Both the position numbers and the translations under genes were made by a program. Of a stretch of DNA of 64,000 bases, positions 8,950-17,404 are shown piece by piece (the stretch's first letter is position 1; the number at the start of each line of letters is the position of its first letter). Source of the DNA: Micrococcales bacterium 73-13 (GTDB lineage: Bacteria > Actinomycetota > Actinomycetes > Actinomycetales > Microbacteriaceae). The stretch lies in contig MKVN01000008.1 in NCBI GenBank assembly GCA_001898855.1, positions 33,285 through 97,284 on the forward strand, written 5' to 3'. The notes under the pieces were generated by a model. It was given only the letters and a program-made list of their open reading frames with translations, did no database searches and was not told the origin of the DNA.

Positions 8950-8972
8950 CGCCGGCCCGCCGGGGCGTCAGG
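8945..8972. terminator. Bidirectional hairpin containing both convergent stop codons
   Basis: CCTGACGCC (8945-8953) pairs perfectly with GGCGTCAGG (8964-8972) around a 10-base loop. The glgP TGA (8947-8949) lies in one arm and the stop of the convergent ATPase gene (8968-8970) in the other. No T-run follows, as is usual in high-GC actinobacteria. Confidence 0.65.
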
Positions 8973-9702
8973 AGGGCAGGAAGCGGGCGAGGAAGGCGCG
9001 GGTGCGGGGCTCGCGCGGCGCGCCGAGCACCTGGGCGGGCGGGCCCTGCTCGCAGACCTCGCCGGCGTCGAGGAAGACGACGCGGTCGGCGACGTCCCGG
9101 GCGAACGCCATCTCGTGCGTCGCCATCACGATCGTCGTGCCATCGGCCTTGAGCTCGCGGACGAGCTCGAGCACCTCGCCGACCAGGAGCGGGTCGAGGG
9201 CGCTGGTGACCTCGTCGAGCAACAGCAGCTCCTGCCCGGCGGCGACGGCCCGGGCGATCGCGGCCCGCTGCTGCTGCCCGCCGGAGAGCCGGTCCGGATA
9301 GGCGGACGCGTGGTCCGCGAGCCCGACCCGTTCGAGGAGCTCGGCGCCCCGTCGCGTCGCCTCGTCGCGCGGGACGCGGTGCACGGCGCGCAGGCCCAGC
9401 GTCACGTTGTCGAGGATCGTCCGGTGCGGGAACAGGTTGTAGCTCTGGAAGACGACGCCGATCCGCGCCCGGACCCCGTCCGGGTCGGCCCGCGGGTCGG
9501 TGATGTCGTCGCCGCCGAGCAGGATCCGCCCGTCGTCGACCCGCTCCAGCAGGTCGATCGTCTTGAGCAGCGTCGACTTGCCCGACCCGCTCGCTCCGAT
9601 CAGGGCGACGACCTCGTGCGCGGCGACCTCGAGGTCGATGCCGCGCAGCACCGCGCGGTCGCCGTAGGACTTCCAGACGCCCTGCACGCTGAGCACGCTC
9701 AT
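8968..9702 (-). CDS. Polar amino-acid ABC transporter, ATP-binding subunit
   Basis: A 244-residue GlnQ/HisP-type ATPase that powers import through the permease encoded just upstream. All motifs are present: Walker A GASGSGKST (about 36-44), Q-loop VVFQSYNLFP, signature LSGGQQQR, Walker B LLLLDEVTSALD and H-loop ATHE. The ATG overlaps the permease stop by four bases. The substrate is probably a polar or charged amino acid; the sequence does not say which. Confidence 0.93.
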   Translation of the reverse strand: MSVLSVQGVWKSYGDRAVLRGIDLEVAAHEVVALIGASGSGKSTLLKTIDLLERVDDGRILLGGDDITDPRADPDGVRARIGVVFQSYNLFPHRTILDNVTLGLRAVHRVPRDEATRRGAELLERVGLADHASAYPDRLSGGQQQRAAIARAVAAGQELLLLDEVTSALDPLLVGEVLELVRELKADGTTIVMATHEMAFARDVADRVVFLDAGEVCEQGPPAQVLGAPREPRTRAFLARFLPS

Positions 9703-10553
9703 GCCGCGCCCCCGACCTGCTCGCGGCGCTGCATCCGGGCGCTCAGCCAGTCGGTGAGCCGGATCATCGGCCAGGCGAGGACGACGAACAGGACGCCGGC
9801 GAGGACGTAGGGGGTGAAGTTGCCCCAGGTCGCCGTCTCGATCTGCGCGGCGCGGACGGCGTCGACGGCGCCGAGCACCGAGATCAGCCCGACGTCCTTC
9901 TGCATCGAGATGAAGTCGTTCATGAGTGGCGGGGTCACCTTGCGGATCGCCTGGGGCAGCACGACCATCCGCAGCGTCTGGCCGTGCGTGAGGCCGAGCG
10001 CGCGGCCGGCGATGCGCTGCGAGGGGTGGACGGCCTCGATCCCGGCGCGGATGACCTCGGCCACGTAGGCGGAGTAGGTGATGATCAGCGCGACCGGCCC
10101 TAGCACCAGCACGGGGACGCGCTGCTGCAGCAGCCCGGGGATCCCGAAGCCGACGAGGTAGAGCACGATGATCAGCGGCAGGCCGCGGAACAGGTCGGTG
10201 TACGCGGCGGCGAGGAAGCGCGCCGGGAACCAGACCGCGCCGCGGAGCGTGCGCAGGAACGCGATGATCGTCGCGAAGACCGCGACGCCGACCACCGAGA
10301 TGCCGAGCACCTGGAGGTTGAGCAGGAAGCCGTCCCACACCCGCGGCCAGGCGCCGACCCAGGCGACCGGGTCGAAGAAGCTCTGCTGGACCTTCGGCCA
10401 TCCCGGGGAGAACAGGATGAGCAGGGCGATCGCGGCGGCGAACACGATCGTGCTCGCCGCGCCGACGAGCACCGATCTCGCCGTCTGGCGGCGGCGGAAG
10501 GCCTGGCGCTCGACCTCGATCGGGCTCGGGCGCCGGGCCTCCGTTGCGGTCAT
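9699..10553 (-). CDS. Polar amino-acid ABC transporter, permease subunit
   Basis: A 284-residue HisM/GlnP-type membrane protein. It has a basic cytoplasmic N-terminus, a long first helix (about 28-48), a periplasm-facing loop and then about five helices with the His/Glu/Gln-type permease signature. The EAA loop is visible in RALGLTHGQTLRMVVLPQA. Normally two copies, or a pair with a second permease, form the channel; only one permease gene is here, so a homodimer is inferred. A TAGTGT box seven bases before its ATG suggests its own promoter in addition to read-through from the binding-protein gene. Confidence 0.92.
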   Translation of the reverse strand: MTATEARRPSPIEVERQAFRRRQTARSVLVGAASTIVFAAAIALLILFSPGWPKVQQSFFDPVAWVGAWPRVWDGFLLNLQVLGISVVGVAVFATIIAFLRTLRGAVWFPARFLAAAYTDLFRGLPLIIVLYLVGFGIPGLLQQRVPVLVLGPVALIITYSAYVAEVIRAGIEAVHPSQRIAGRALGLTHGQTLRMVVLPQAIRKVTPPLMNDFISMQKDVGLISVLGAVDAVRAAQIETATWGNFTPYVLAGVLFVVLAWPMIRLTDWLSARMQRREQVGGAA

Positions 10554-10560
10554 TCCGATG

Positions 10561-10566
10561 ACACTA
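10561..10566 (-). promoter_or_regulatory. -10 box of the amino-acid permease gene (leaderless type)
   Basis: TAGTGT on the minus strand, seven bases before ATG 10553. It would let the permease and ATPase be transcribed separately from the binding protein. Confidence 0.5.
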
Positions 10567-10577
10567 GCGAAGCGGGT

Positions 10578-10606
10578 CCGGGGCGGGTGCGGCGAACCCG
10601 CCCCGG
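10578..10606 (-). terminator. Stem-loop between binding-protein and permease genes
   Basis: CCGGGGCGGGT (10578-10588) and ACCCGCCCCGG (10596-10606) form an 11-bp perfect stem with a 7-base loop. It begins five bases after the binding-protein stop. This position in importer operons usually lowers read-through and protects the binding-protein mRNA, giving more binding protein than channel. Confidence 0.65.
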
Positions 10607-10611
10607 GACGC

Positions 10612-11439
10612 CTACTTGAGCAGCGGGACGCCCTGGTCGGCGCCGAGCCACTTCGCGGCGATGCTCGCGAGCGTCCCGTTCGAGCGGAGCGTCTCGATCG
10701 CCTTGGTGACGGCCGCGGTGAGCGCGCTGCCCTTGGGCAGCGCGAGGCCCCACTGGTCGGTCTCGCCCTCGACGTCCGGCAGCTGGCCCACGATGACGCC
10801 GCCGTCGAGCTCGACGCCGGTGATGTAGAACGCGGTCGGCACGTCGACGACCAGCGCGTCGACCTGGCCGGACTCGAGCGCGAGCTTCGCGTCGTCGTTC
10901 GAGTTGAACACCTGGGCCGGGGTCGTCGGCGCGATGACCTGCTCGATGGCTTTCAGGCTCGTGGTGCCGGTCGCGGCGCCGATCGAGAGCGAGCGGAGGT
11001 CCGCGATCGAGGTCGCCTTCGCCGCCTTCGAGCCCTCGACGGCGATGACGGCCTGTCCGGCCGAGTAGTAGGGCGGCGAGAAGTCGATCGAGCCCTTGCG
11101 CTCGTCGGTGATGGAGATCTGCTGGAGGTTGAGGTCGTAGCTCTTCGGGCCGGGCGCGATCGCCTCGTCGAAGGTGCTGCGCACCCAGACCACGTCCGCG
11201 GCGGCGAAGCCGAGCTGCTCGGCGACCGCGTAGCCGATCGCCGACTCGAAGCCCTCGCCGCTGGCGGGGTCGTCGTCGATGACGTACGGGAAGTAGGCGG
11301 GCTCGCCGGTGGCGATCGTGAGCTTCCCGGGCGTGACGTACTCGGGCGCGGCGCCGGAGGCGCAGGCGGAGAGTCCGAAGGCGGTCGCGGCGGCGGCGAG
11401 CACCGCCGCGGCGCGGGTGAGGAGACGGTTCTTGGGCAT
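10612..11439 (-). CDS. Polar amino-acid ABC transporter, substrate-binding lipoprotein
   Basis: A 275-residue family 3 extracellular solute-binding protein (SBP_bac_3). A signal peptide ends in the lipobox LSAC, so Cys26 should carry the lipid anchor. The mature part has the two-lobe pattern with the family segments GFESAIGYAVAEQLG and DFSPPYYSAGQAVI. It captures the amino acid outside the cell for the permease and ATPase downstream. A GAGAAT box six bases before the ATG may be a weak -10 of the leaderless kind. Confidence 0.93.
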   Translation of the reverse strand: MPKNRLLTRAAAVLAAAATAFGLSACASGAAPEYVTPGKLTIATGEPAYFPYVIDDDPASGEGFESAIGYAVAEQLGFAAADVVWVRSTFDEAIAPGPKSYDLNLQQISITDERKGSIDFSPPYYSAGQAVIAVEGSKAAKATSIADLRSLSIGAATGTTSLKAIEQVIAPTTPAQVFNSNDDAKLALESGQVDALVVDVPTAFYITGVELDGGVIVGQLPDVEGETDQWGLALPKGSALTAAVTKAIETLRSNGTLASIAAKWLGADQGVPLLK

Positions 11440-11499: not shown

Positions 11500-11513
11500 G
11501 CGCCGGCCGGCGC
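11500..11513 (-). terminator. Palindrome at the end of the two-component operon
   Basis: GCGCC-GGCC-GGCGC, a 5-bp stem with a 4-base loop, touches the response-regulator stop codon. It is a possible terminator, but short perfect palindromes arise easily at this base composition. Confidence 0.3.
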
Positions 11514-12172
11514 TAGAGGTCGGTCGGCGCGATGTCCGGGCCGACCAGGATGCCGTCCTGGATCGCCTGCATCCGCAGCGCCACCTTGGTGCCGACGTCG
11601 ATGCCGTACGCCCGGTACTTCTCGCGGATCCGCTTGAGGTAGCTCTTCGCGGTCTCCTCCGAGATCTGCAGCTGGTAGGCCACCGTCTTGACCGGCTCGC
11701 CGGTGGCGTAGAGCGCCATCACGCGGCGCTCCTGCGCGGACAGCCGCGGCGAGGAGGCGTCCGGGCCGCCGTTGACGGCGAGGTCGAGCTCGGCCGAGAT
11801 GAACACCTCGCCCTGCGCCGCGGCGCGCAGCGCCTCGATGATCATCTCGGCGTCCTCGGTCTTCACCAGGTACCCGAGCGCACCGGCCGCGAGCGCCTCG
11901 CGGATGATCGAGGGCTCCGAGTAGGTGCTCATCAGCACCGGCGTCACGCCCGCGGACTTCAGCAGCGAGATCTTCACGCTGACCGGGATGTTGTCCTTCA
12001 GGTCGACGTCGAGCAGCACGATGTCCATCGGGAACGACGGGTGGGAGACCAGCTCCGACCAGGTCGGCACGGCCGCGACGATCTCGATGTCGCTCGCCGC
12101 GTTGCGCAGCCATTCGGTGAGCGCGCCGAGCAGCATGCGGTGATCGTCGACGATCGCGAGCTTGATGGTCAT
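11513..12172 (-). CDS. NarL/LuxR-family response regulator
   Basis: A 219-residue transcription factor. The receiver domain (1-125) has acidic pocket residues D9/D10, phosphoacceptor D55 (IVLLDVDL), S82 and K104. A LuxR-type helix-turn-helix occupies about 144-205 (LSAQERRVMALYATGEP, then ISEETAKSYLKRIREKY). It should be phosphorylated by the kinase encoded two genes upstream in the same operon. Its ATG overlaps the stop of the kinase-like membrane protein (ATGA), so all three are translationally coupled. Target genes are unknown. Confidence 0.93.
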   Translation of the reverse strand: MTIKLAIVDDHRMLLGALTEWLRNAASDIEIVAAVPTWSELVSHPSFPMDIVLLDVDLKDNIPVSVKISLLKSAGVTPVLMSTYSEPSIIREALAAGALGYLVKTEDAEMIIEALRAAAQGEVFISAELDLAVNGGPDASSPRLSAQERRVMALYATGEPVKTVAYQLQISEETAKSYLKRIREKYRAYGIDVGTKVALRMQAIQDGILVGPDIAPTDL

Positions 12173-13383
12173 CCGGCCCCTTCCGCGTCTGTTCTACCAC
12201 GACCGGCGCCGACCGTCGCCGGGACGAGGCAGCTGATGTCGATGCGGATGCCGGATCCGTCGAGCGCCTCGCGGTAGCGCCCGACCTGGGCGATGTGCTG
12301 CCAGACGCCCGGCTCGATGCGGGTCCGGGTGGAGCCGGGCACCACGATCCGGACGTTCACGGCGGCCAGCGTCTCGGAGTGCAGCGTCGCGACCGGCTCG
12401 CCGACCGTCAGGGCGATCGGGGTCTGGCCGCTGCGGCCGGACGCCACCCGGCCGTCGTGCAGCAGCCAGAGCGCGGAGAGCAGCGCGGCGCGCTGCCGGG
12501 TGCCGAGCAGCCCCGCGGAGGAGGAGGGATCGTCGATCTGGATCTCCTGGCTGAGCAGGGTCGACTCCTCGATCGCCAGCGCCAGCCAGGTCTTGCTCCG
12601 GCTGGCGAGCAGGTGCAGCCGCAGCTCGGTGGCCAGCACGCCGGCGCGCTTGGCGACCTCCGCCGACAGCGGCAGGGGCATCCGGCCGTCGGCGACGGCG
12701 CCGAGCAGGCTCTCCGCGGCGAGGTCGAGGCGGGCGAGCTGCTCGGAGGCCTCGACCCCGAGCGTCAGCCGCGGCGCGGCGACCGAGGCCTGCGAGAGCG
12801 CCTCCTCCATCTCCCGGCGCATCAGCCGGCGGAACTCGTCGCACACCAGGGCGGCGACCACCACCGGCAGCAGCATCCGGCAGAGCGTGAAGACCGCGTC
12901 GGCGGCGTTCGGCGCCGCGTACGCGGGGGTGAGGACCCAGACCGCGCCCGTGACGGCGGTGAGCGCGGCGGCGACCGGGATGATCTGGAAGCTCGGCCGG
13001 GTGACGACGGCGAGCATGAGCGAGAACGCCGCGGAGACGCCGACCGAGAGCGCCGCGCCGGGGTTCTCGACGTGCCGGGTGGCGGCCAGGTCGAGGCCGA
13101 GGACGATCGCGAGGGCCGCGACCCACAGCCAGAACATCCAGTTCGGCAGGTGCGCGCCGAGGATGTGGGTCACGATCAGGATCGCGGCGTCGGCGATCAC
13201 GAGCACGATCCAGGCGGTCAGGATCGGCACCGGGTCGGCGATGCGGCCGAGCAGGTCGATCGTGGTCGCGAGGTCGATGGTCATCGCCATCGCGAGCAGC
13301 AGGATGCCGCCGATCCAGATCAGCCGGGTGCCGAGCCCGGCGTACCGCCGGCTCGCGCGCTCGGCGAGCGTCGGGGCGCTCAT
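12169..13383 (-). CDS. Kinase-like membrane protein without catalytic boxes
   Basis: A 404-residue protein between the sensor kinase and the response regulator. About six hydrophobic helices occupy residues 18-182, followed by a coiled-coil-like helix (183-200) and a soluble region. That region resembles the dimerisation and ATP-binding part of a sensor kinase in layout only. There is no His in a phosphoacceptor context, no Asn-box and no Gly-boxes. The segment LGTRQRAALLSALWLLHDG occupies the place of the N-box helix. The gene overlaps both neighbours by four bases. I infer a pseudokinase or sensor partner of the kinase; the family is not recognised with certainty. Confidence 0.65.
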   Translation of the reverse strand: MSAPTLAERASRRYAGLGTRLIWIGGILLLAMAMTIDLATTIDLLGRIADPVPILTAWIVLVIADAAILIVTHILGAHLPNWMFWLWVAALAIVLGLDLAATRHVENPGAALSVGVSAAFSLMLAVVTRPSFQIIPVAAALTAVTGAVWVLTPAYAAPNAADAVFTLCRMLLPVVVAALVCDEFRRLMRREMEEALSQASVAAPRLTLGVEASEQLARLDLAAESLLGAVADGRMPLPLSAEVAKRAGVLATELRLHLLASRSKTWLALAIEESTLLSQEIQIDDPSSSAGLLGTRQRAALLSALWLLHDGRVASGRSGQTPIALTVGEPVATLHSETLAAVNVRIVVPGSTRTRIEPGVWQHIAQVGRYREALDGSGIRIDISCLVPATVGAGRGRTDAEGAG

Positions 13384-14537
13384 CGCGGCGCCTCCAGCAG
13401 CACGGTCGTCCCGGCGCCGGGGGAGGAGAACAGCCGGGCGCTGCCGCCGACCTCGCTCAGGCGCGCGATGACGGACTCCTTGAGGCCGAGCCGCTCGTGC
13501 TCCACCTCGTCGAGCTGGAAGCCCTTCCCGGCGTCGGTGATCATCGCCCGCACGGTGTGCTCGTCCTCGGTGATCGTCACGTGCGCGAGCCGGACCCCGC
13601 TGTGCCGGCGGACGTTCTCCAGGCACTCGCTGATCGCGAACAGGAACGCGTCGAGCACGCCGGGCGGCAGCAGCAGCCGTCCCGCGCCGTGCCACGCGAC
13701 GTCGAGGCCGAGCTGGTCGAAGCGCTGCTTGACGGAGTCGAGCGTCGTGCCGATCGAGGTCTCCTCGACCGGCTCCGGGCGGTAGGCGGCCTCCGGCAGC
13801 GTGAACAGCGGCTCGCCGAGGCGCAGCAGCCGCAGCAGGTGGGCGTCGTTGCGCGCCTGCTCGCGGAGCGCCTCCTCGGAGGTGCCTCGGCCGGAGTGCG
13901 CGAGCAGCGTGAGCGTCGCGAGCACGGTGTCGTGCAGCAGCCGGGCGCTCTGCCGGCGCTGCGCCTCGAGCTCGCTGGCGCGCCGCTCGGCGCGATGGGC
14001 GCGTCCGACCTCGGCGATCTGGCGGACCGCCGGCGGGATGCTCGAGGCGAGCACCAGGCCGATCGCGAAGGCGACCAGGCCGCCGAGCAGCAGCAGGGCG
14101 ATCCCGAGCACACGGACCGCGGGGCCGTCGGCGAACGCGCCCGCCGCGGTGACCAGGAGCACCCCGATCCAGAACCAGAGCGCCCCGAGGCGCTCGGGCA
14201 GCAGCGCGATGAGCGCGCCCGGCACGGCGCCGCCGAACAGGGCGAGCACCGCGAACCCCCCGACCTCGGTCGCGCCCGGGGCCGCGAGGACGAGCACCAG
14301 CGCGATCGCGATCGTCGAGGCGACGAAGCCGGCGATCCAGCCCGGCATGCCGCGCGCGTGCAGGTTCACGATGCACAGCGCGCCGACCGCGAACAGCGGC
14401 AGCAGCAGCCAGTAGACGAGCGAGCCGCCGATCGGCGGGGTGCTCAGGACGGCGACCGTCGCGAGGAGCCCTCCCGCCGCCCACAGCCGCGCCGTCTGCC
14501 GCAGCAGACGCACGCGCTTCCCCTGGATCTGATCCAT
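13380..14537 (-). CDS. Sensor histidine kinase (HisKA_3/NarX type)
   Basis: A 385-residue membrane kinase. Six or so helices occupy residues 18-170, followed by a short coiled coil (171-197), the phosphoacceptor H202 in RLLHDTVLATL, and an ATPase domain with N-box ECLENVRRHS and G-box ITDAGKGF, ending in GAGTTVLLEAPR. It has no large extracellular domain, so it probably senses something in or near the membrane. The ATG at 14537 (MDQIQGKRV) is chosen because the upstream frame is Arg/Pro-rich non-membrane sequence. Its stop overlaps the start of the kinase-like protein (ATGA). Confidence 0.9.
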   Translation of the reverse strand: MDQIQGKRVRLLRQTARLWAAGGLLATVAVLSTPPIGGSLVYWLLLPLFAVGALCIVNLHARGMPGWIAGFVASTIAIALVLVLAAPGATEVGGFAVLALFGGAVPGALIALLPERLGALWFWIGVLLVTAAGAFADGPAVRVLGIALLLLGGLVAFAIGLVLASSIPPAVRQIAEVGRAHRAERRASELEAQRRQSARLLHDTVLATLTLLAHSGRGTSEEALREQARNDAHLLRLLRLGEPLFTLPEAAYRPEPVEETSIGTTLDSVKQRFDQLGLDVAWHGAGRLLLPPGVLDAFLFAISECLENVRRHSGVRLAHVTITEDEHTVRAMITDAGKGFQLDEVEHERLGLKESVIARLSEVGGSARLFSSPGAGTTVLLEAPR

Positions 14538-14706: not shown

Positions 14707-15924
14707 TCAGCTCTCGGCTCGGACCTCGAGCAGCCGGCGCAGCTGCGCGCCGACGATCTCGGACTCGATGAGGAACGCGTCGTGCCCGTACTCGCTGGAG
14801 ATCAGGTGCGGGCGGCTGTCGTCGATGTTCCCCGGGACCCCCGCCGCGACGCGCTCCTGGTCGGCGACCGGGAACAGCCGGTCGGAGTCGATCGCGAGCA
14901 CGAGGGTCGGCATGGCGACGCGCTCCAGCGCGGCCTCGACGCCGCCGCGGTCCCGTCCGACGTCGTGCGAGTTCATCGCGGTCGCCAGGGTGATGTAGCT
15001 GTTCGCGTCGAAGCGGCGCGGGAACTTGTTGCCCTGGAAGTCGAGGTAGGACTCGACGGCGTAGCGGCCGCCCTCGCCGAGCGGCGAGCGGGTCGACTGC
15101 CAGCTGCGGTCGAATCGCTGGTTGAGCTCGTGCGGCGAGCGGTAGTCGAGGAGGGCGAGGCGGCGCGCGAGCGCGAGGCCGCGGTGGGGTCCGTCGCCGT
15201 CGGCGGCCTCGTAGTAGTCGCCGTCGGCGAACGCCGGGTCGGTGTGGATCGCCTCGATCTGGAGGGCCCCGCGCGCGATCTGATCGGCGGTCGTGATCGC
15301 CGGGGCGGCGAGCACCGCGAGGCGCTCGACCCGCTCGGGGCGGCCGACGCCCCACTCGAGCGCCTGCATGCCGCCCATCGAGCCGCCGACCACGAGCGCC
15401 CAGCGCTCGATCCCCAGCGCGTCGGCGAGCGCGGCCTGTGCGGCGACCTGGTCGCGAATCGTCGTGTACGGGAACCGCGCCCCCCACTCGCGCCCGTCGG
15501 GGGCGAGGCTCACCGGCCCGGTGGTGCCCTGGCAGCCGCCGAGCATGTTCGGCACCACCACGAACCACCGGTCGGTGTCGAGCGCGAGCCCCGGCCCGAC
15601 GATGTCGGCCCACCAGCCGCCGGTGGGGTGGCCCGGTCCCGGCGCCCCCGCCGCGTGCGAGTCGCCGGTCAGCGCGTGGCAGACCAGCACGGCGTTCGAT
15701 CGCCGCGCGTCCAGCTCGCCGAACGTCTCGTAGGCGACCCGGAGGGCCGGCAGCGAGCCGCCCCGCTCGAAGGCGAACGGGCCGAGACTCGCGAACGTCC
15801 GGTGCCCGGGCGGGTCGCCCTCCCGCCAGCCGCCGGTGGCGGGCGGCTTCCCGGCGAGCTCGCGGACGTTCGCGTCCGTGATGAACGCCGAGGGGAACGA
15901 GTCCTCCGGGGTCTGCCAGTCCAT
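14707..15924 (-). CDS. metX: Homoserine O-acetyltransferase
   Basis: A 405-residue alpha/beta-hydrolase-fold enzyme that makes O-acetyl-homoserine from homoserine and acetyl-CoA, the first committed step of methionine synthesis. The catalytic triad is visible: nucleophile S182 (GGSMGGMQALEWG), D348 (AIDSDRLFP) and H381 (EYGHDAFL). The family segments CHALTGDSHAAG and NMLGGCQGTTGP are intact. MetY, which uses its product, is encoded just upstream on the same strand. A REP-like inverted repeat fills the gap between them and a strong hairpin follows the stop. Confidence 0.96.
   Translation of the reverse strand: MDWQTPEDSFPSAFITDANVRELAGKPPATGGWREGDPPGHRTFASLGPFAFERGGSLPALRVAYETFGELDARRSNAVLVCHALTGDSHAAGAPGPGHPTGGWWADIVGPGLALDTDRWFVVVPNMLGGCQGTTGPVSLAPDGREWGARFPYTTIRDQVAAQAALADALGIERWALVVGGSMGGMQALEWGVGRPERVERLAVLAAPAITTADQIARGALQIEAIHTDPAFADGDYYEAADGDGPHRGLALARRLALLDYRSPHELNQRFDRSWQSTRSPLGEGGRYAVESYLDFQGNKFPRRFDANSYITLATAMNSHDVGRDRGGVEAALERVAMPTLVLAIDSDRLFPVADQERVAAGVPGNIDDSRPHLISSEYGHDAFLIESEIVGAQLRRLLEVRAES

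Positions 15925-16087: not shown

Positions 16088-17404
<1,317 letters not shown>

Follow-up and report, generated by a model that had tools for sequence, protein, structure and literature searches.

A predicted pseudo-histidine kinase encoded between a membrane histidine kinase and a LuxR-type regulator in Microbacteriaceae

What is the role of a membrane protein that is encoded between a histidine kinase and a response regulator, and that has the layout of a kinase without any of the catalytic boxes? The question is raised by a locus of the window, i.e. the whole stretch of 64,000 nucleotides analyzed here, which comes from a Microbacteriaceae assembly (GTDB family) of 2.4 Mb in 48 contigs. 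An earlier note on this DNA had described three genes overlapping by four bases at 11513-14537. This observation was confirmed: the genes follow one another on the minus strand in the order K (the kinase), M (the protein in question) and R (the regulator), with an ATGA overlap at both the K/M and the M/R junction. The genes and their upstream neighbours are the following:

13380..14537, minus strand: K, membrane histidine kinase of 385 aa, catalytically complete by sequence (HATPase_c and invariant residues)
12169..13383, minus strand: M, predicted pseudo-histidine kinase of 404 aa, with six membrane helices, a DHp-like and a CA-like domain
11513..12172, minus strand: R, response regulator of 219 aa, with a receiver and a LuxR-type HTH
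13380..13383, minus strand: overlap of the K stop and the M start, ATGA on the coding strand
12169..12172, minus strand: overlap of the M stop and the R start, ATGA on the coding strand
14707..15924, minus strand: metX-like gene upstream of K (alpha/beta hydrolase, homoserine O-acetyltransferase type; Pfam Abhydrolase_1)
16088..17398, minus strand: metY-like gene (Cys/Met metabolism PLP enzyme; PF01053, E 2e-140), start approximate

Four-base overlaps are frequent in operons and, taken alone, prove little. The long plus-strand open reading frames that cover the K-M-R region look like the usual antisense frames of high-G+C DNA. Directly downstream of R, at 8968-11439 on the minus strand, lies what we take from the ORF sequences to be an ABC transporter set of the amino-acid type, with ATPase, permease and substrate-binding protein; the compared relatives often have an MFS transporter, a thiamine-binding protein or an opposite-strand glycosyltransferase downstream of R instead.

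The outer two genes of the trio were considered first. K corresponds to the complete membrane histidine kinase that the note had announced. It matches HATPase_c in Pfam (PF02518, E 5e-7) and has the HisKA_3-type layout, in which this domain is combined with an HDxxxx DHp motif: 'LLHDTVLATL' is found around H202, with HDTVLATL invariant or nearly so, and the N-box and G-box read 'ECLENVRRHS' and 'DAGKGF', respectively. The Pfam HisKA_3 model itself gave no match to K. Residues H202, D203, N308, D335, G337, G339 and G351, which include the phosphoacceptor and residues of both boxes, are invariant in 64 homologues, and conservation in K is highest in the DHp and in that part of the CA domain which holds the G-box. 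The phosphoacceptor codon is located as follows:

13932..13934, minus strand: His202 of K (64 of 64 homologues; 30 of 30 in the joint alignment of K and distant M relatives)

The best NCBIfam matches of K are MacS (58 bits) and LiaS (31 bits), for family cut-offs of 300 and 450; at 58 bits against a curated cut-off of 300, K does not qualify as a member of the MacS family (NF047322). MacS- and LiaS-type HisKA_3 kinases are like K in having several membrane helices, no extracellular domain, a HisKA_3-like DHp and HATPase_c, and differ from it in that K scores far below the cut-offs of these families. A review of S. coelicolor systems mentions no pseudokinase partner. R carries a receiver (PF00072) and a GerE domain (PF00196), both above cut-off, and its phosphorylation residues are complete, including the phosphoacceptor Asp and the Lys: D9, D10, D55, S82 and K104 show no variation among 70 homologues; the NarL-type regulator of the note was thus recovered, as a member of the NarL/LuxR type.

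Domain libraries gave no name to M. No match was found in Pfam (up to E 10) or in NCBIfam (up to E 1), and neither a PDB sequence search with M nor Pfam scans of 65 M members returned anything reliable. An AlphaFold2 model of M, built from a 79-sequence alignment (pLDDT 86.5), predicts six membrane helices and a long helix that runs into a DHp-like hairpin, followed by a CA-like domain. The parts are distributed as follows:

12835..13335, minus strand: membrane region of M, residues about 17-183, six helices in the model, least conserved part
12595..12834, minus strand: DHp-like helical hairpin of M, residues 184-263 (model helices 157-231 and 241-263), most conserved part
12208..12594, minus strand: CA-like (Bergerat-type) domain of M, residues 264-392, without the N-box Asn and the G-box residues
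12724..12726, minus strand: Asp220 of M, Asp in 65 of 65 and in 79 of 79 homologues

The best PDB structure matches of this model, obtained with Foldseek, are the kinase domains of LOV-HK, LvrB, AgrC, NtrB, DesK, RetS and HK853; Spo0B is also present, ranked lower. Modelled alone, the CA-like part reached a pLDDT of 91.9 and a pTM of 0.86, and its six best PDB matches, with TM-scores of 0.50-0.62 by query length, are LOV-HK, NtrB and phytochrome A kinase-related domains. The soluble region is thus predicted to fold as a kinase rather than as something unrelated, in keeping with the note, which had described a second multi-helix and kinase-like membrane protein devoid of catalytic boxes.

Since the Foldseek E-values of the M models are modest (1e-3 to 5e-3), evidence was sought at the sequence level. 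A full-length profile alignment of M with K covered the membrane part only, which could be compositional; it was discarded, and soluble parts were compared instead, together with reversed controls. When the soluble parts of M were compared directly with those of its own K, the result was not significant (E 0.087), and the homology of M to kinases therefore rests on a transitive chain combined with the fold. The M family matches distant M relatives from outside Microbacteriaceae at E 4e-11 over 344 columns, and at E 8e-4 for the soluble parts (reversed control 0.15). The soluble parts of these distant relatives match in turn those of their own kinases (E 1e-14; reversed control 0.05) and those of the Microbacteriaceae K (E 1e-6; reversed control 0.33). 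In proteins in which K and M are fused, the distant-M profile matches both the kinase and the M half (L183, E 9e-12; L185, E 5e-6), and the kinase profile matches the M halves at 23-54 bits. Models, PDB matches and transitive profile homology all point to a histidine kinase fold, composed of DHp and CA, for M.

The catalytic residues of this fold are missing. No His is conserved at the phosphoacceptor site among the 65 members, nor in any of 26 distant relatives, and neither the N-box Asn nor the Asp-x-Gly-x-Gly of the G-box is conserved in the M family. When 30 K sequences were aligned jointly with 26 distant M sequences, His202, Asn308, Asp335, Gly337 and Gly339 of K were found in 30/30 kinases, and the equivalents of the His, Asn and Asp in 0/26 distant M. 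In the Microbacteriaceae family, the position of the lost phosphoacceptor His aligns, give or take one residue in the gap-free register of the profile alignment, with the Asp220 listed above, a residue that is not retained in the distant relatives. Sequence and model together indicate that M is a diverged kinase copy without phosphoacceptor, N-box or G-box.

The divergence is not uniform along the protein. Fifteen columns are invariant in the 65 members (W58, D220, A247, L254, R255, L258, W266, L267, A270, S274, L277, D285, R298, W306 and G368). Over 79 sequences, the two DHp helices have the highest column identity (0.85 and 0.81), ahead of the first portion of the CA domain (0.72), its remainder (0.53) and the membrane part (0.44). 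Being high in the DHp and lower in the later CA, these values indicate that M has retained a predicted dimerisation and regulator-binding surface and has relaxed its putative nucleotide lid. In the sole other genome of the window's genus that was met (locus L002, about 1257-2478), M is split into two frames near residue 78; this genome is 66% complete and in 290 contigs, and the frame break is possibly an assembly error.

The association of M with K was then analyzed in 200 Microbacteriaceae genomes. M is present in 139 of them, and K (presence threshold E 1e-40) in exactly the same ones, both being missing in the other 61. K adjoins M in all 70 loci first examined, and R is found downstream of M on the same strand in 67; three paralogous copies (L064, L065 and L068) have R nearby on the opposite strand. 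Scanning the genome collection with the M protein of the window alone as query gave no match. With an alignment of closer M relatives as query, 80 further named loci were obtained, in which the order K-M-R was again found wherever the contig extends far enough. Moreover, metY and metX lie upstream of K in 59 of the 59 loci with full flanks. M is thus constantly associated with an intact kinase, through its co-occurrence (139/139), synteny and fusions, and the gene is indeed conserved beside the kinase, as expected under the reading of the note. The overlaps are less constant. K and M overlap in about 30 of the 70 loci (start choice was heuristic), and an overlap of M and R is rare (5 of the 67 same-strand loci), most of these loci showing gaps of about 10-90 bases. 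Adjacency and order are fixed; because the M-R overlap is rare in relatives, co-translation of all three genes is not. The 'fixed co-translation' put forward in the note was therefore overstated, and applies at most to K and M.

Relatives of M were also found beyond the family. A sample of 248 genomes of the order yielded 15 matches to M, of which nine are family members and the rest are weak; weak matches outside Microbacteriaceae that are confined to the membrane helices were disregarded, being probably compositional. Distant M relatives across the class were gathered with L160 as query, a locus from a different family of the order that had matched weakly, and the resulting profile was found in 41 of 297 genomes. 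Distant M relatives lie in K-M-R operons at loci such as L172-L175 and L177-L179. In 22 genomes (20 of one family and one each in two others), K and M form a single continuous open frame. A plasmid of Streptomyces sp. NBC_00536 carries K as an 'ATP-binding protein', M as a 'hypothetical protein' and R as 'LuxR', and a plasmid of Rhodococcus sp. AH-ZY2 has the order R-K-M; the M proteins of both plasmids match the distant-M profile. Finally, the distances of K and M are correlated once the species signal is removed via metX and metY (partial correlation r 0.61, reached in 0 of 2000 permutations), for values of 0.37 between K and R and 0.38 between M and R. As a sign of coupling between K and M this correlation is suggestive only, since neighbouring genes share their history.

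Several variants of the locus were met in the course of these comparisons. The order R-K-M is found in two Microbacteriaceae paralogues and on the Rhodococcus plasmid (L168, L169, L203). Roughly half of the named loci have, just upstream of K, an additional response regulator that is ~43% identical to R (L075, L077, L081-L083, L085, L086, L089, L094, L097, L099-L101, L103, L108, L109, L112, L114, L115, L118-L120, L123-L129, L134-L137, L140 and L141); where checked it sits between metX and K, so that the kinase pair is flanked by two regulators. This second upstream regulator was not seen in the window. Some Microbacteriaceae have an additional K-M or K-M-R set that is weakly related (L166, L167, L170 and L253), beside a gene that we presume, from its appearance to the eye, to be a thymidine kinase. 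At L233 / L249 (G655:C11), an unusually long frame apparently contains an M domain preceded by two kinase-like stretches, and a response regulator lies on the other strand.

Taking fold, residues and distribution together, M probably belongs, as an obligate pseudokinase subunit, to a membrane sensor complex in which K is the only enzyme. An obligate subunit of this kind explains the presence of both genes in the same genomes and in the same order, the fusions, the retained DHp and the lost catalysis. K would bind ATP and phosphorylate its own His202, from which the phosphoryl group would pass to Asp55 of R. M would most likely pack on K through a four-helix DHp bundle and through the membrane helices, in an assembly that may be a K:M heterodimer or K2M2, and the state of its membrane part would set the ease with which R is phosphorylated by K or dephosphorylated. 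Direct contact between K and M is what we infer here, as are the heterodimer geometry and the direction of control, be it activation or inhibition. That the pseudokinase belongs to the sensor complex had been proposed in the note, and the K-M fusions, as read from the open frames, strongly support such a shared complex; for a physical association of K and M, and for a changed kinase activity, they would give indirect support. The note had gone further in suggesting that M is perhaps the signal-sensing half of a heterodimer. This specific role is not borne out, K and M carrying comparable membrane domains, and the interpretation of the note is on the whole partly supported.

The nature of the off-step leaves room for another reading, in which M is a dedicated phosphatase or off-switch for R, in a division of labour with K. 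The DxxxQ motif of HisKA_3 phosphatases (PMC3510030, PMC5231405) is absent from K, which has Ala207 in 64 of 64 homologues at the position where DesK and NarX have Gln. K may therefore have little phosphatase activity, and the off-step may be provided or governed by M through Asp220 (65/65) and Glu224 (63/65), an acidic i,i+4 pair that could face the regulator; in addition, the phosphoacceptor His is dispensable for phosphatase activity in HisKA_3 kinases (PMC5231405). We nevertheless regard this reading as unlikely: Glu is not known to serve as a phosphatase residue in place of Gln, Asp220 can be lined up with the His-Asp pair only to within one residue, and the distant M relatives have not kept Asp220.

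M might also be a separate homodimeric sensor that binds R, by sequestration or delivery, without contact with K. DHp helices are indeed also the surface that binds response regulators, and the DHp-like part is the most conserved one in M. The fusions, the strict co-occurrence of K and M, and a distance correlation that is higher for K-M than for M-R (0.61 versus 0.38, species signal removed) make this improbable. An activity of M as a kinase with unusual catalytic residues is very improbable in turn: the CA fold is kept in the model and its first part is well conserved, but the domain has no conserved Asn, Asp-x-Gly or Gly-rich motif, and conservation drops at the expected position of the nucleotide lid. 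As for M being a functionless, decaying remnant of a duplicated kinase, the loss of all catalytic residues and the frame break at L002 would fit, but the presence of M in all 139 genomes with K, the 15 columns invariant across 65 divergent members and a DHp better conserved than the membrane part largely refute it, and we give it hardly any credit.

An obligate pseudokinase subunit can be compared with several known systems. Bacterial sensor kinases are usually regarded as homodimers. RetS and GacS of Pseudomonas, which are hybrid proteins encoded apart, are in this respect unlike K and M. The interaction between these two sensors tunes the output (PMC5992135), and the PDB matches of the M model include RetS structures. 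In Streptomyces coelicolor, AbrC1/C2/C3 likewise groups the genes of two sensor proteins with that of a single regulator; the AbrC kinases share 57% mutual identity and are both annotated as kinases (PMC3098853), whereas M is a strongly diverged and catalytically empty partner. DivL of Caulobacter likewise resembles a kinase and, without phosphorylating, controls a genuine one, CckA (PMC4211667, PMC9430884); it is alphaproteobacterial, and the portions of these sources available mention no operon that it shares with CckA, whereas M is encoded beside K and fused to it in some relatives. A pseudokinase variant of ChrS in Corynebacterium glutamicum, a kinase without CA function, raises signalling via another kinase; the native kinases of that study formed heterodimers in two-hybrid tests, and truncated ChrS formed none in that assay (PMC9491836). 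This variant is a laboratory-evolved frameshift, whereas M is a natural conserved protein. In Hik36-Hik43 of Synechocystis, a split kinase, two proteins jointly make up one kinase (PMC7656254); split kinases divide the catalytic parts between both proteins, and here K holds all of them.

The note had put the arrangement forward as possibly undescribed. This holds for the M family in the libraries and literature searched: no description of it or of K-M fusions was found in the open-access literature, an absence that is not proof, and the same search returned no interaction, expression or phosphorylation report on family members. It does not hold for the kinds of system involved, as pseudokinase partners and triads of two kinases and one regulator are already known.

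On a broader scale, it is conceivable, and proposed here tentatively, that actinomycetes possess a widespread, as yet unnamed class of bipartite sensors, whose intact kinase would work only with a dedicated pseudokinase subunit, adjacent or fused, so that the kinase is split from control (sensing or phosphatase); in Microbacteriaceae this class would be near-core and tied to metY-metX. If K and M do form such a complex, they would provide a natural, family-wide kinase:pseudokinase pair, and with it a direct test of how an inactive partner controls a kinase, the K-M fusions fixing the ratio at 1:1. It would also give a meaning to 'hypothetical proteins' encoded next to two-component systems of the LuxR type in Microbacteriaceae, Streptomyces and Rhodococcus.
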